NCBI RefSeq assembly: GCF_947498175.1
Contig: NZ_CANMJB010000006.1
Location: forward strand, 1 to 64,000
DNA from: an uncultured Algimonas sp.
GTDB taxonomy: Bacteria; Pseudomonadota; Alphaproteobacteria; Caulobacterales; Maricaulaceae
Length of the DNA: 64,000 nucleotides
Reading direction: 5' to 3'
Positions within the stretch are counted from its first letter, which is position 1. Every line of letters starts with the position of its first letter. Positions 21,580 to 38,195 of this stretch are shown here, one piece after another. The translations under genes were made by a program, and so were the position numbers. The notes under the pieces are model-generated. The model did no database searches. It saw nothing but the letters and a program-made list of their open reading frames with translations, and was not told where the DNA came from.

Positions 21580-22374
21580 CTAGAAGTCGAACCGTCCGAC
21601 GATCGGCACATGGTCGCTGGGCTTCGCGCCGTCGCGCACGAACTTGTCGATCGACACGTCCACCAAACGGTCCATCGCGCTGGCCGAGCAGAGCAGATGG
21701 TCGATGCGGATGCCCAGATTGTTCTGCCAGGCCCCGCCCTGATAATCCCAGAAGCTGTATTGTCCGTCGCGCCCGTCCAACATTTCGAACGCATCGTAGA
21801 GACCCAGATGCTTGATCGCGCGGAAAGCCGCCAGCGTTTCCGGACGATAGAGCGCGTCGCCCCACCATGCTTTCGGATCGTGGCAATCGCCCGCGCGCGG
21901 GATGACATTGTAGTCCCCGGCCAGGATCAACGGCTCTTCATGGGTCAACAGCTTTGCCGCATGGGTCTTCAGCCGCGCCATCCAGTCCAGCTTGTAGCGG
22001 TATTTCTCGCTGTCGGCCGTCTCGCCCACCGGATTGCCGTTGGGCAGGTAGATCCCGCCGACGCGCACCACGCCGCGACCCGCCGGAATGACGGCTTCGA
22101 TGTAGCGCGCCTGATCGTCGCCATCGTCGCCCGGCAAGCCGATCGTGACCTCGTCCGGGCTTTGGCGGCTGAGGAGGGCGACCCCGTTATAGCTCTTCTG
22201 GCCGTGGACGCTGACATGATAGCCCAGCGCCTCGATTTCCAGGCGCGGAAAACCCTCATCGACCGTCTTGATCTCCTGCAGGCACAGCACGTCCGGTTTG
22301 GCGGCCTCCAGCCATTCCGTAAGCGCCGGCATCCGCGCCTTGACCGAATTGATGTTCCAGGACGCAATCTTCAT
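21580..22374 (-). CDS. xth: Exodeoxyribonuclease III / AP endonuclease
   Basis: A 264-aa protein with all EEP-family motifs: N7 in MKIASWNINSVKAR, metal-binding E34 in LCLQEIKTVDE, GDYNVIPRAGD, and the terminal SDHVPIVGRFDF with the catalytic Asp-His pair. It cleaves DNA 5' of abasic sites and degrades duplex DNA 3' to 5' in base-excision repair. The start at 22374 was chosen because MKIASWN is the family N-terminus; the 16-residue in-frame extension is not conserved. A serine hydrolase gene follows 10 nt downstream, a pairing with no evident functional link. Confidence 0.96.
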   Translation of the reverse strand: MKIASWNINSVKARMPALTEWLEAAKPDVLCLQEIKTVDEGFPRLEIEALGYHVSVHGQKSYNGVALLSRQSPDEVTIGLPGDDGDDQARYIEAVIPAGRGVVRVGGIYLPNGNPVGETADSEKYRYKLDWMARLKTHAAKLLTHEEPLILAGDYNVIPRAGDCHDPKAWWGDALYRPETLAAFRAIKHLGLYDAFEMLDGRDGQYSFWDYQGGAWQNNLGIRIDHLLCSASAMDRLVDVSIDKFVRDGAKPSDHVPIVGRFDF

Positions 22375-22445
22375 GAACGCCCGCGTCGGAACTTTGCGCA
22401 TCCCTGTCAAGCATTCCCGCAACGGACCGCCCCTCTCCCCACCCC

Positions 22446-22552
22446 CTCATCCCGGGCTCGACCCGGGATCCATCTCCCCACCGTTCCGCCCAGCCCAGCC
22501 GCCCCGGATGGACCCCACGAGACCGTGCGAGCGCGTCCCTGTCCGGGGTGAG
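22446..22552. repeat. Family A palindromic intergenic repeat, interrupted copy
   Basis: The left arm (CATCCCGGGCTCGACCCGGG region, 22446-22479) matches the copies at 7898 and 45130. The right arm keeps ATGGACCCC and GTCCGGGGTGAG, but the central GGATCAA is replaced by about 24 other bases (22517-22540). The copy lies upstream of xth. Confidence 0.75.
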
Positions 22553-22566
22553 TGGTATAGGAGACG

Positions 22567-22595
22567 CCATCCCCGGCATTCATAGCCGGGGATGG
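22567..22595. repeat. Perfect 11-bp hairpin upstream of xth
   Basis: CCATCCCCGGC and GCCGGGGATGG flank a 7-nt loop. No T-run follows on either strand, so it is not a classical terminator. It sits next to the family A repeat and may be part of the same element or an independent stem in the xth upstream region. Confidence 0.6.
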
Positions 22596-22731: not shown

Positions 22732-23400
22732 AAAAAAACTTCACGAAACTAATCCTGATCATCCCCGTATGGGGATAGTTTCATACCCGTTCGCTGCAAG
22801 ACACGAGGAGGGGCGTAACCCTCGGTGCAGCGGGCAGGAGCGAGGGCTCGGTGGTGCGAGCGGGGATCCTCCCGCCGCACAAGGACTGTGAAGAGCAGTC
22901 CGCGGGTCCTCTTTCGGGAGAGCCGACGCCGGGGTCTGACACCCCCGGTGCAATCGTAGCCCCGGAGAGGACCGCGCACCGCCGGGTGGAGTCGCCAGCC
23001 GATCTACGCAGCGGCTGGCGTCCTTCCGACGTAACGCTCCGACGTGTGGCTGGTCCCTGGGCTCCGCGCGCGCTTGAGATCCCCGCCTCGCCAGGGTCGG
23101 CGGACGGGGGGAGGCCGTGGAGCGCAGAGGGTGGGCCCCACGCCGGGCGGCGATGTCGGGCTTAGCTTCTCGCGCGGGCTTTCGCCCTCGTAAATAGGTG
23201 TGTCTTCGCTTTCAATCCTTCGGGAGCGAAAGCCCGCGCCTCGTGTCGCCAATAGGCGGCGCAGAACGACCCCGCCGTGGCCCCGATGCCCGGTTGTACG
23301 GAGGGGCATGTCCGAATGTCATGGAAACCCGACTTGAAAAATCCGGCGCCAACGAACATATGCGCTTCAAGACATGCGCCGCTTCCGGCACGCGCTTCTC
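22732..23400 (-). ncRNA. Candidate large structured RNA of unknown type
   Basis: About 670 nt between xth and ettA hold no believable protein gene but are dense in stems. Examples: a perfect 8-bp stem 22994-23019 (GCCAGCCG/CGGCTGGC), 22883-22901 (GGACTG/CAGTCC), 22929-22948 (CCGGGG/CCCCGG), 22854-22880, and a 14-bp long-range inverted repeat 23172-23185 with 23226-23239. Read on the minus strand the region ends in a hairpin (22745-22782; ATCCCC/GGGGAT inside GAAACT/AGTTTC) followed by seven T (22738-22732), which resembles an intrinsic terminator. I looked for the RNase P, SRP and tmRNA hallmark sequences and did not find them. Strand and 5' end are uncertain; it could instead be an ettA leader on the plus strand. 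Confidence 0.4.
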
Positions 23401-23445: not shown

Positions 23446-25104
23446 ATGGCACGCCAATTCGCCTATCACATGCAAGGTCTGACGAAGAAATTCGGCAACA
23501 AGACCATCTTGGACAATGTCCACCTGTCCTTCTATCCCGACGCCAAGATCGGCCTGGTCGGCGTCAACGGCGCGGGCAAATCGACCCTCATGAAGATCAT
23601 GGCGGGCGAGGACACGGAAGTGACCGGCGAACATTGGGCGGCCGAAGGCGTCAAGGTCGGCTACCTGCCGCAGGAACCCAAGCTCGATCCGGACAAGGAT
23701 GTCTGGGGCAACGTCATCGCCGATTGCGAGGACAAGAAGATCTTCGACCAATACAACGAGGTCGCCATGAAGATGGCCGAGGATTATTCCGACGAGCTGA
23801 TGGAAGAGATGACGGCCTTGCAGGAGAAGGTCGATGCGCGCGATGCGTGGGACATCGACAGCAAGATCGAGATGGCCATGCAGGCGCTGCGCTGCCCGCC
23901 CAAGGACGCGGACGTGACCAACCTGTCGGGCGGGGAACGCCGCCGGGTCGCGATCTGCCAGCTGCTGCTGGCCAAGCCTGACCTGCTGCTGATGGACGAA
24001 CCGACCAACCATCTGGACGCCGAGACCGTCGCCTGGCTGGAAAACTATCTGATCAACTACAAAGGCGCGGTCATCCTGATCACGCACGACCGCTATTTCC
24101 TCGACAATATCACGAACTGGACGCTGGAAGTGGACCGGGGCCGGACCTATCCGCACGAAGGCAATTATTCGTCCTGGCTGGCGTCGAAGGCCGCGCGCAT
24201 GGATCAGGAAGGCCGCGAAGCCGACTCCAAGACCAAGGCGATGAAGCGCGAGCTGGAATGGATCCGCTCCAATCCGAAGGCGCGCCAGACCAAATCCAAG
24301 GCCCGGATCAGCGCCTATGAACAGCTGCGCGACTCGGCCGAGAACGAAGTCGTCGGCCATGCCGAAATCCGCATTCCGATGGGCGAGCGGCTCGGCAATA
24401 TCGTGGTGGAGGCCAATAACGTTTCTAAAGGGTTCGACGACAAACTTCTCATCAAGGATCTGTCCTTCAAGCTGCCGCGCGGCGGGATCGTCGGTGTGAT
24501 CGGCCCGAACGGCGCCGGCAAGACGACCCTGTTCAAGATGATCACGGGCGAGGAGCAGCCGGACGAGGGCAGCTTCAAGGTCGGCGAGACGGCGGAGCTC
24601 GGCTATGTCGATCAGAACCGCGACGCGCTGGACAACAGCAAGAACGTCTGGGAAGCGATCTCCGACGGTTTGGATATCCTCAAGCTCGGCAAAAGGGAAG
24701 TGCCGTCAAGGGCTTATGTCGGGGCCTTCAACTTCAAAGGCACGGACCAGTCCAAGAATGTGGGCCAGTTGTCGGGCGGTGAACGCAACCGCGTCAACCT
24801 GGCCAAGATGCTGACGCGCCCGGCTAACCTGCTGCTGCTCGATGAACCGACCAACGATCTGGACCGCGAAACGCTGGCCTCGCTCGAAGTCGCGCTGGAG
24901 AAGTTCCCCGGTTGCGCCGTGGTCATCTCGCACGACCGCTTCTTCCTCGACCGGGTCGCCACGCACATCCTGGCCTATGAGGGCGACAGCCACGTGGAAT
25001 GGTTCGAAGGCAACTTCGCGGACTATATCGAGGACAAGAAGCGTCGCCTCGGCGACGATGCCGACATCCCGAAAAAGCTGAAATTCGTGAAATTCGAACG
25101 GTGA
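23446..25104 (+). CDS. ettA: Energy-dependent translational throttle protein EttA (ABC-F)
   Basis: A 552-aa ABC-F protein with two nucleotide-binding domains and no membrane segments. Walker A motifs are GVNGAGKST and GPNGAGKTT, signatures LSGGERRR and LSGGERNR, Walker B LLLMDEPTNHLD and LLLLDEPTNDLD. Length and the ending KKLKFVKFER match EttA rather than other ABC-F members. In E. coli it binds the ribosomal E site and restrains the first peptide bond when ADP is high. The start MARQFAYHMQGLTKKFG at 23446 is the family N-terminus; 24 extra in-frame residues upstream are not conserved. Confidence 0.95.
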   Translation: MARQFAYHMQGLTKKFGNKTILDNVHLSFYPDAKIGLVGVNGAGKSTLMKIMAGEDTEVTGEHWAAEGVKVGYLPQEPKLDPDKDVWGNVIADCEDKKIFDQYNEVAMKMAEDYSDELMEEMTALQEKVDARDAWDIDSKIEMAMQALRCPPKDADVTNLSGGERRRVAICQLLLAKPDLLLMDEPTNHLDAETVAWLENYLINYKGAVILITHDRYFLDNITNWTLEVDRGRTYPHEGNYSSWLASKAARMDQEGREADSKTKAMKRELEWIRSNPKARQTKSKARISAYEQLRDSAENEVVGHAEIRIPMGERLGNIVVEANNVSKGFDDKLLIKDLSFKLPRGGIVGVIGPNGAGKTTLFKMITGEEQPDEGSFKVGETAELGYVDQNRDALDNSKNVWEAISDGLDILKLGKREVPSRAYVGAFNFKGTDQSKNVGQLSGGERNRVNLAKMLTRPANLLLLDEPTNDLDRETLASLEVALEKFPGCAVVISHDRFFLDRVATHILAYEGDSHVEWFEGNFADYIEDKKRRLGDDADIPKKLKFVKFER

Positions 25105-37781: not shown

Positions 37782-37797
37782 AATTGGAACGAAGAAA

Positions 37798-38150
37798 GTG
37801 GTGGGTTTCTGTTGCCAGCTACCCACCGAAGCCCGCCTAGGGGTCTGAAACCCTAGGAGTTAAAAGTCGGAAAATATCCGGACTGCTTACGCAGCCAGGG
37901 CAAATTCCTCAGCAGAATTGTCATTAGCAATTACTGTTGTCGGACTTTTGACGGAGTCCACACGAACGAAAGCTAACGTCTTTAGGCGTCTGTCGATGCT
38001 GTTTCGGCCCCATCAGAAACCCACCGGTCCGGTGGATTTGTGGTGGAGCCGCCGGGTACTGCCCCCGGGTCCAGTCCGCTTATTGCACGCGCGTTTATCG
38101 TCATAGCTGGCAAGCCAGCCCGATCCATATAGGGCATGGGAGCCTGAATT
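37798..38150 (-). ncRNA. ssrA: tmRNA, circularly permuted two-piece form
   Basis: On the minus strand the acceptor piece comes first, ending GTACCCGGCGGCTCCACCA with its 3' end at 38041. A 29-nt spacer (38012-38040) with a CCACCG/CGGTGG hairpin follows, then the coding piece starting GGGGCCGAAACAGC at 38011. GGGGCCG pairs with CGGCTCC as the 7-bp acceptor stem, and CCGGG/CCCGG forms the T stem. The tag frame at 37929-37888 reads ANDNSAEEFALAA then TAA. Hairpins 37800-37827 and around 38105-38118 (GCTGGC/GCCAGC) lie near the ends. Outer boundaries are approximate. tmRNA rescues stalled ribosomes and marks products for ClpXP, linking it to sspB in this window. Confidence 0.93.
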
Positions 38151-38195
38151 TCCAGCCCCAACCGATCAGCCGCGTGGTTCGCCGTTGAAACGCGC

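Follow-up and report, generated by a model that had tools for sequence, protein, structure and literature searches.

Few bacterial RNAs match the size and complexity of the one considered here, a candidate structured RNA of about 350-500 nucleotides (nt) located between xth and ettA in the genome of an uncultured Algimonas sp., and several of them had unexpected structures or roles. The HEARO or OMEGA RNAs, which are associated with IsrB or IscB, are likewise structured and a few hundred nucleotides long, and HEARO occurs in multiple copies. Passages of one account (PMC12286853) describe HEARO RNA as binding a protein, and OLE, GOLLD and ROOL as large, elaborate non-coding RNAs. The Caulobacter intergenic repeats with a methylation site (CIR) are characterized, in excerpts of PMC2229807, as units of ~110 bp with two arms and a conserved GANTC located in a terminal loop. 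The candidate RNA lies within a stretch of 64,000 nucleotides (hereafter the window; contig NZ_CANMJB010000006.1 of assembly GCF_947498175.1), where the unit common to its copies in the same genome, which comprises the RNA and short flanks, spans positions 22776-23300 on the + strand as delimited by DNA matches and by the ends of alignment homology.

Like OLE, GOLLD and ROOL, the window RNA is large and elaborate, but it has no Rfam match, occurs in many chromosomal copies and gave no phage or plasmid match. It differs from HEARO and OMEGA RNAs in having neither a HEARO match in Rfam nor a common neighbour gene among the 25 widest neighbour clusters viewed, and in possessing a promoter-like box and positions shared between species. 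Both CIR and the window RNA are alphaproteobacterial intergenic repeats that occur in many copies and have a predicted RNA structure, whereas the window RNA is 350-500 nt long and has a long-range closing helix and a pseudoknot. GANTC occurs 0.51 times per copy (72 copies), with one site in each of six full copies of the element's own main subfamily. Membership of CIR was rejected on the basis of this inconstant GANTC and the 350-500 nt unit. Hepatitis delta virus (HDV)-like ribozymes have the helix order P1, P2, P3, P4, which the P0, P1, P2, P4 order of the window RNA (helices as defined below) resembles. However, the window RNA differs by an inserted domain of ~250 nt and by the presence of only 0-2 nt at the catalytic J4/2 position. 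Because P4 abuts P1 with 0-2 nt (by eye), leaving no J4/2 segment, assignment to this class was also rejected.

A recurrent structured RNA without a match among known classes

The element almost certainly represents a real, multicopy structured RNA family that is undescribed as far as Rfam 15 and the open literature extend. Our preferred reading, to which we assign a probability of roughly 0.6, is that it is an independently transcribed, pseudoknotted RNA gene of ~350-500 nt whose product probably acts in trans, and one of ~24 copies in its own genome. Searches of Rfam 15 at gathering thresholds left the element unmatched in the window, at 20 loci of its own genus and at 11 loci of another family of the order, and a permissive mode returned chance-level matches only (in the window, to small nucleolar RNA, microRNA and long non-coding RNA families). 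RNase P RNA was rejected as a candidate identity, since RF00010 was found once each in the own genome (G000), in a second carrier of the genus (G015) and in a carrier from outside the family (G178), in each case elsewhere than the element. No description of such an RNA came up in the searches made of open-licence PMC papers.

An earlier note, made from the letters of the window alone, had suggested a large structured RNA that fits no familiar class, and had named an Rfam search and an analysis of conservation and covariation as checks. Both agree with the suggestion: there is no match to the element above the gathering threshold, copies exist in the own genus and in another family, and helices P4, P1, P0 and P3 carry compensating changes across copies. 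A folded, recurring RNA without a library match therefore looks undescribed, in the sense that it matches none of the known families; large ornate RNAs as a kind have precedents.

Extent of the unit and its coding potential

The element is flanked by xth (exodeoxyribonuclease III, - strand, ~21580-22401) and the EttA gene (23446-25104, + strand), both recognized above NCBIfam cut-offs. The window unit shares 84-92% DNA identity over nearly its full length with five other places in its own genome, and there are partial matches at four more. All shuffled sequences fold worse than 22790-23345 on the + strand (z -5.0; 0/100 as good) and than 22732-23400 on the - strand (z -5.0; 0/20 as good). The latter interval is the one that the earlier note had delimited; its view of a structured region holds, but its boundaries do not, the copied unit being 22776-23300. 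The pairings it had picked out are present in the letters. A stem given as 8 bp is in fact 9 bp (22993-23001/23012-23020), the pairing of GGTCCTCT is found at 22905-22912/22966-22973, and the long-range repeat noticed at 23172/23226 extends over 19 nt with 89% complementarity (23172-23190/23221-23239).

Open reading frames (ORFs) of 40 to 104 amino acids exist within the region on both strands, which qualifies the earlier statement that it contains no plausible ORF. The statement is nevertheless borne out for the longest of these, a + strand frame of 104 amino acids: in 5/5 other full copies compared, a stop codon interrupts it after 2 to 10 codons. The copies differ by many substitutions without codon-position bias, by small frame-shifting gaps and by one insertion of ~24 nt. 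The + strand frame is not conserved across copies, and a protein-coding gene in this frame was rejected in view of the substitutions over all three positions, the frame-shifting gaps and the early stops.

Compensating changes in a predicted pseudoknotted fold

The fold (all features on the + strand) begins with the 5ʹ strand of P0 (22789-22798), which pairs with its 3ʹ strand at 22826-22835. The 5ʹ strand of P1, GACACGAG (22800-22807), is located inside P0, and its complement, the 3ʹ strand CTCGTGTC (23240-23247), lies ~430 nt away and beyond P0, such that P0 and P1 together would make a pseudoknot. Between the P1 5ʹ strand and the P0 3ʹ strand is the P2 hairpin (22808-22823, pairing 22808-22812/22819-22823), which was read by eye in this and other copies. 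There follow a central multibranched domain (22836-23170) and the P4 hairpin (23172-23239). The central domain is closed by P3, formed within 22836-22853 and 23154-23170, for which two adjacent segments are candidate pairing partners in the window copy. This domain also carries AGGCCG at 23112-23117, which occurs as AGRCCG in 24/24 long own-genus copies. The P4 loop bears the motif GTAAATAGGT (23190-23199), of a type present in 76/82 places that resembles GUAAANNGGU in the own genus and GUCGAAACGGUA in the other family. The earlier note mentions neither the 8-bp helix 22800-22807/23240-23247 nor the pseudoknot, and the recurrence of the region across the genome is likewise absent from it.

Among 76 distinct rows of P4, 92% of cells are paired, and 249 cells are changed on both sides versus 81 (standard deviation 10) in shuffles. 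The covariation score is 0.484 versus 0.217 in shuffles, and this signal is lost when the partner strand is slid. For P1, nine of the 82 copies described below were left out because less than 300 nt was available upstream, and the remainder were placed without use of the 3ʹ strand, although the scoring window includes the P1 5ʹ strand. This placing was passed by 61/73 copies, 59 of them distinct. Exact 8-of-8 complements occur in 37/59, whereas 2000 partner shuffles gave 16.3 on average and never more than 24. The strand variants include GACACGAG/CTCGTGTC, GGCACGGG/CCCGTGCC, GTCACGAG/CTCGTGAC, GACGCGGG/CCCGCGTC and GGCATGGG/CCCATGCC. A stricter side test that places P1 by motif only, which lost 42/73 copies and misplaced one, gave 20/30 exact complements (mean 8.2 and maximum 14 in 2000 shuffles). 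When the best helix between expected segments was compared with 300 partner shuffles (n 59), z was 9.5 for P0 and 6.8 for P3.

A comparable arrangement was obtained with RNAalifold from 19 copies of the second family. In it, P0 surrounds a strand, GGAAAGGG or GGAGGGC, that is largely unpaired, and a closing helix similar to P3 is present along with P4; of the 60 pairs, 14 have changes on both sides. In an alignment read by eye, GGAAAGGG stands opposite CCCTTTCC in one genus, and GGAGGGC stands opposite GCCCTCC in the other.

Copy number and taxonomic spread

A DNA search of 60 genomes yielded ten matches in the own genome (query included), ten short matches in G015 and one of ~40 nt in G029, a member of the same family in which the surroundings of the match held no element. 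Several own-genome copies are located at contig ends, as expected because repeats break assemblies. R1, a covariance model built from 12 sequences of the 3ʹ hairpin, matched 5 of 139 genomes, all from the own genus, which contributed 18 genomes to the set. With a second hairpin model (R2, 82 rows, one antisense), the raw matches numbered 25 in G000 and 32, 12, 6 and 11 in the other carriers of the genus, G015, G006, G007 and G012, respectively. Removal of four antisense matches left 24, 29, 12, 6 and 11 in the same order, for a total of 82 sense-strand copies; two of the 24 in G000 are weak matches.

The wide searches, with 12 to 34 candidates scored in each genome, may overlook copies that have diverged. 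In such searches, R2 found one extra match outside the family among 398 genomes of the own order, in G178, where the layout was present on inspection. When DNA of the G178 element was searched against 149 genomes of its family, 62 were matched at E <=0.01, many by weak single matches that may be chance, and 38 of these had a best E <1e-5 (counted by hand) in genera g21, g28 and, once, g340. R3, a model that combines the two families (28 sequences), was searched in 200 genomes of the order and matched 25, all of them in three genera (the own genus g1, g21 and g28); class-wide it matched 2 of 289 genomes, both from the own order. Class-wide, R2 matched 1/385 genomes, namely the own genome. The more distant copies thus belong to a second family of the order, putatively Caulobacteraceae (with genera like Caulobacter and Brevundimonas), where two or more genera carry them. 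When 150 candidates were scored in each genome, six second-family genomes were found to hold 32, 12, 7, 6, 2 and 2 copies, and seven further own-genus genomes gave a single weak match, in G016.

The nearest named relatives of the host EttA are those of Hellea (88% identity) and Robiginitomaculum (73-82%), and R3 had no match at 80 named loci. An exact-pattern scan of a named genome collection for the own-genus 3ʹ motif returned nothing; the same pattern matches 16/21 element loci and therefore works. Exact-pattern scans of viral contigs with own-genus and other-family motifs gave no match, and neither did blastn searches in 'distant' mode of plasmid and phage records with the window element and the second-family element.

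Strand, putative promoter and relation to ettA

The RNA is most likely read from the + strand, on which P4 has 157 cells with G-U pairs versus 39 with A-C mismatches, and P1 has 14 G-U versus 2 A-C. Because the P4 alignment was fitted to a + strand model and leans to that strand, this excess supports rather than proves the assignment. A promoter-like region on the same strand (22752-22787) comprises ATCC boxes at 22752-22755 and 22761-22766 and a -10-like CATACC, read by eye, at 22782-22787. ATCC occurs at -52 to -38 of P1a in 47/59 distinct copies, compared with a mean of 6.1 and a maximum of 13 in 500 mononucleotide shuffles. Further ATCC peaks near -67, -78, -100 and -111 form steps of ~11 nt from -45, and a peak at -60 is off-step. 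Such steps, in a set where many copies are close kin, suggest a candidate activator. A sigma-70 consensus scan of the region found no promoter match.

Separate promoter-like hexamers for ettA, CTTGAA (23333-23338) and CATATG (23357-23362), are located on the + strand at 23333-23362, outside the RNA unit. Hexamers of the form TTGA/TTGC plus CATAT precede ettA within ~115 nt in 15/15 genomes inspected by eye, most of them without detected RNA (16 had an EttA match, and G004, whose match is partial, was left out). In addition, G015 has no RNA copy directly upstream of ettA. Independence of the RNA from ettA is thus supported by these arrangements, though not proved. In the xth-ettA spacers of G007 and G016 (L051, L052), an ORF resembling a helix-turn-helix regulator and a second resembling a membrane protein replace the RNA, as judged by eye.

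Genomic behaviour of the copies

Gene overlaps and orientations were taken from a home-made gene finder with an assumed RNA extent of 400 nt. By this measure the copies are intergenic, with a predicted gene overlapping the assumed extent at 1/82 places. The downstream gene is co-oriented with the RNA in 58/77 cases and the upstream gene in 43/58. A flanking gene (>=60% identity) is common to the two copies in 25 cross-genome pairs, of which 22 match in side and orientation and 3 do not; this is a raw count, and some of the pairs rest on a small protein with paralogues. Examples of shared flanks are ettA (G000 and G006) and a presumed YaaA-like gene (G000, G006 and G015).

Alignments between copies of one genome cover ~350-890 nt at 73-96% and end at varying points; the copies look mosaic, and there are recent subfamilies, such as G015 copies that are 94-96% alike over ~650-780 nt. 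P1 constitutes an inverted repeat of 8-9 nt, and homology continues beyond it. In G000, a diverged 5ʹ fragment of the RNA (C16:29132-29203) lies ~300 nt upstream of a full copy, and therefore truncated or tandem copies exist; at L011, the 5ʹ part of the RNA is present and the 3ʹ motif was not found. We read the whole as old positions that have probably been homogenized by gene conversion, with gains and losses in addition.

The neighbours of the copies were surveyed by clustering 511 ORFs with blastp and viewing the 25 widest clusters by eye. Several clusters are spurious frames inside the element, an ABC ATPase family occurs at 4 loci, and the remaining clusters, at <=3 loci each, resemble orthologous neighbours. 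A ~95-amino-acid protein, presumably GIY-YIG-like from its sequence, is encoded near four RNA copies in three genomes (L073, L127, L131 and L140). In the second family, a cobalamin riboswitch (L264:197-387, - strand) is located near one RNA copy and is the sole Rfam hit at the 11 loci of that family.

Proposed function and alternative explanations

According to the preferred reading, RNA polymerase would start just upstream of P0, using a promoter whose ATCC box lies around position -35, and the copies may be switched on together by a common activator or sigma factor. In the predicted transcript, P0 would enclose the P1 5ʹ strand and P1 would close the molecule ~430 nt later to complete the pseudoknot, with the variable multibranched domain (P3) and the strongly conserved P4 hairpin held inside P1. 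The product might act in trans as a stable RNA or an RNA-protein particle, perhaps using the P1/P4 end as a protein- or target-binding site, while gene conversion would keep the copies alike within a genome. We lean towards the view that the RNA, acting in trans, serves its host and not itself. A more ambitious proposal is that of a new class of large pseudoknotted RNAs, with many near-redundant genes and activator-driven promoters, that forms an RNA-protein machine or a ribozyme in this order of bacteria and multiplies within chromosomes neither by classical transposition nor by simple vertical inheritance. This proposal is tentative, and we place it slightly short of even odds.

Several results weigh against an independently transcribed RNA gene with a role in the host. 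Its expression is inferred, as is its function. The number of P4 pairs with changes on both sides (13) was equalled by 85/500 shuffles, and the P4 alignment was fitted to its model and contains one antisense row. A looser count for P1 (>=7/8 pairs) gave 52/59 versus a shuffle mean of 47.8 and a maximum of 54, and does not separate the two because the P1 sequence is itself conserved. The significance of the shuffle controls is overstated for P4, P1, P0 and P3 alike, since the copies are kin. No partner protein stood out among the 25 widest clusters of neighbours (near loci only). Furthermore, 13/18 own-genus genomes have no R1 match, and the RNA is therefore either dispensable there or too diverged for detection. 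A copy number that ranges from 0 to 32 among related genomes is also odd for a housekeeping RNA.

The main rival to a trans-acting host RNA is a non-autonomous mobile or selfish element, comparable to short interspersed nuclear elements (SINEs), miniature inverted-repeat transposable elements (MITEs) or HEARO, whose fold would serve its own copying or mobilization in trans with no gain for the host. Such an element could account for the dispersed copies and recent subfamilies (those of G015 at 94-96%), for a genome holding 32 copies where two congeners hold 7 and 6, and for the patchy presence in the own genus and the broken pieces at C16:29132 and L011. MITEs and other transposon-derived repeats are marked by fixed ends with terminal inverted repeats and by target duplication. 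However, the copies have no fixed ends, as homology between them stops at many points on both sides, and some of their positions are common to different species. They also carry a promoter-like box and mutations that were compensated after dispersal, gave no match on the searched plasmids and phages and no exact-pattern match in viral contigs, and have no transposase or reverse transcriptase recognized by eye among the 25 widest neighbour clusters. We regard a mobile element as the less likely of the two, though with an appreciable probability. Divergence of a known class past recognition (RNase P RNA, a group I or II intron, HEARO or an HDV-like ribozyme) is improbable. The P0-P1-P2-P4 order does resemble the HDV-like double pseudoknot, and the copy number is reminiscent of HEARO or of ORF-less introns, but Rfam gave no match to the element at gathering thresholds in the window, at 20 own-genus loci or at 11 loci of the other family, and chance-level matches only in permissive mode; RNase P RNA is present separately, and no HDV-like J4/2 segment was seen by eye.

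The alternative offered by the earlier note, a long 5ʹ leader of ettA, belongs to a broader explanation in which the RNA is a cis-acting leader or riboswitch-like regulator of the downstream gene. Although the downstream gene is co-directional in 58/77 cases and ettA is the neighbour in both G000 and G006, the downstream gene is opposite in 19/77, a similar share of upstream genes is co-directional (43/58), and the neighbours vary from copy to copy. Because the ettA hexamers are located past the RNA, because 15/15 genomes, most of them without detected RNA, have a similar pair, and because copies flank many unrelated genes, a leader is not supported and seems very improbable. Least credible is an RNA on the minus strand that ends at a run of seven T residues near 22732. 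The letters for the minus-strand hairpin and T7 that the earlier note had seen are indeed present (a 7-bp inverted repeat at 22745-22751/22776-22782 and T7 at 22738-22732), and the minus-strand fold has a z of -5. Nevertheless, 22732-22782 is almost wholly outside the unit, the hairpin is unseen in other aligned copies, and a terminator scan with a loop limit of 8 did not report it. A minus-strand transcript is likewise disfavoured because G-U exceeds A-C on the + strand (157 to 39 in P4, in an alignment fitted to the + model) and because the common promoter-like box is at the + strand 5ʹ side.

The element reaches 32 copies on a chromosome, has a common promoter-like box and a compensating fold, and recurs in an order to which cell-cycle model bacteria probably belong. 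Should it prove to be selfish, this RNA element would be the bacterial counterpart of SINEs; should it benefit the host, it would be an undescribed RNA machine.

Other features of the window

Palindromic repeats ctcatcccgggctcgacccgggatcc and ccatccccggcattcatagccggggatgg are found in the window at 22451-22490 and 22567-22595, and palindromes of the same kind adjoin other RNA copies, for example G000_C1_234427 and G000_C4_82268. Elsewhere in the window, an alphaproteobacterial transfer-messenger RNA is located at 37797-38158 on the - strand (score 248.8).
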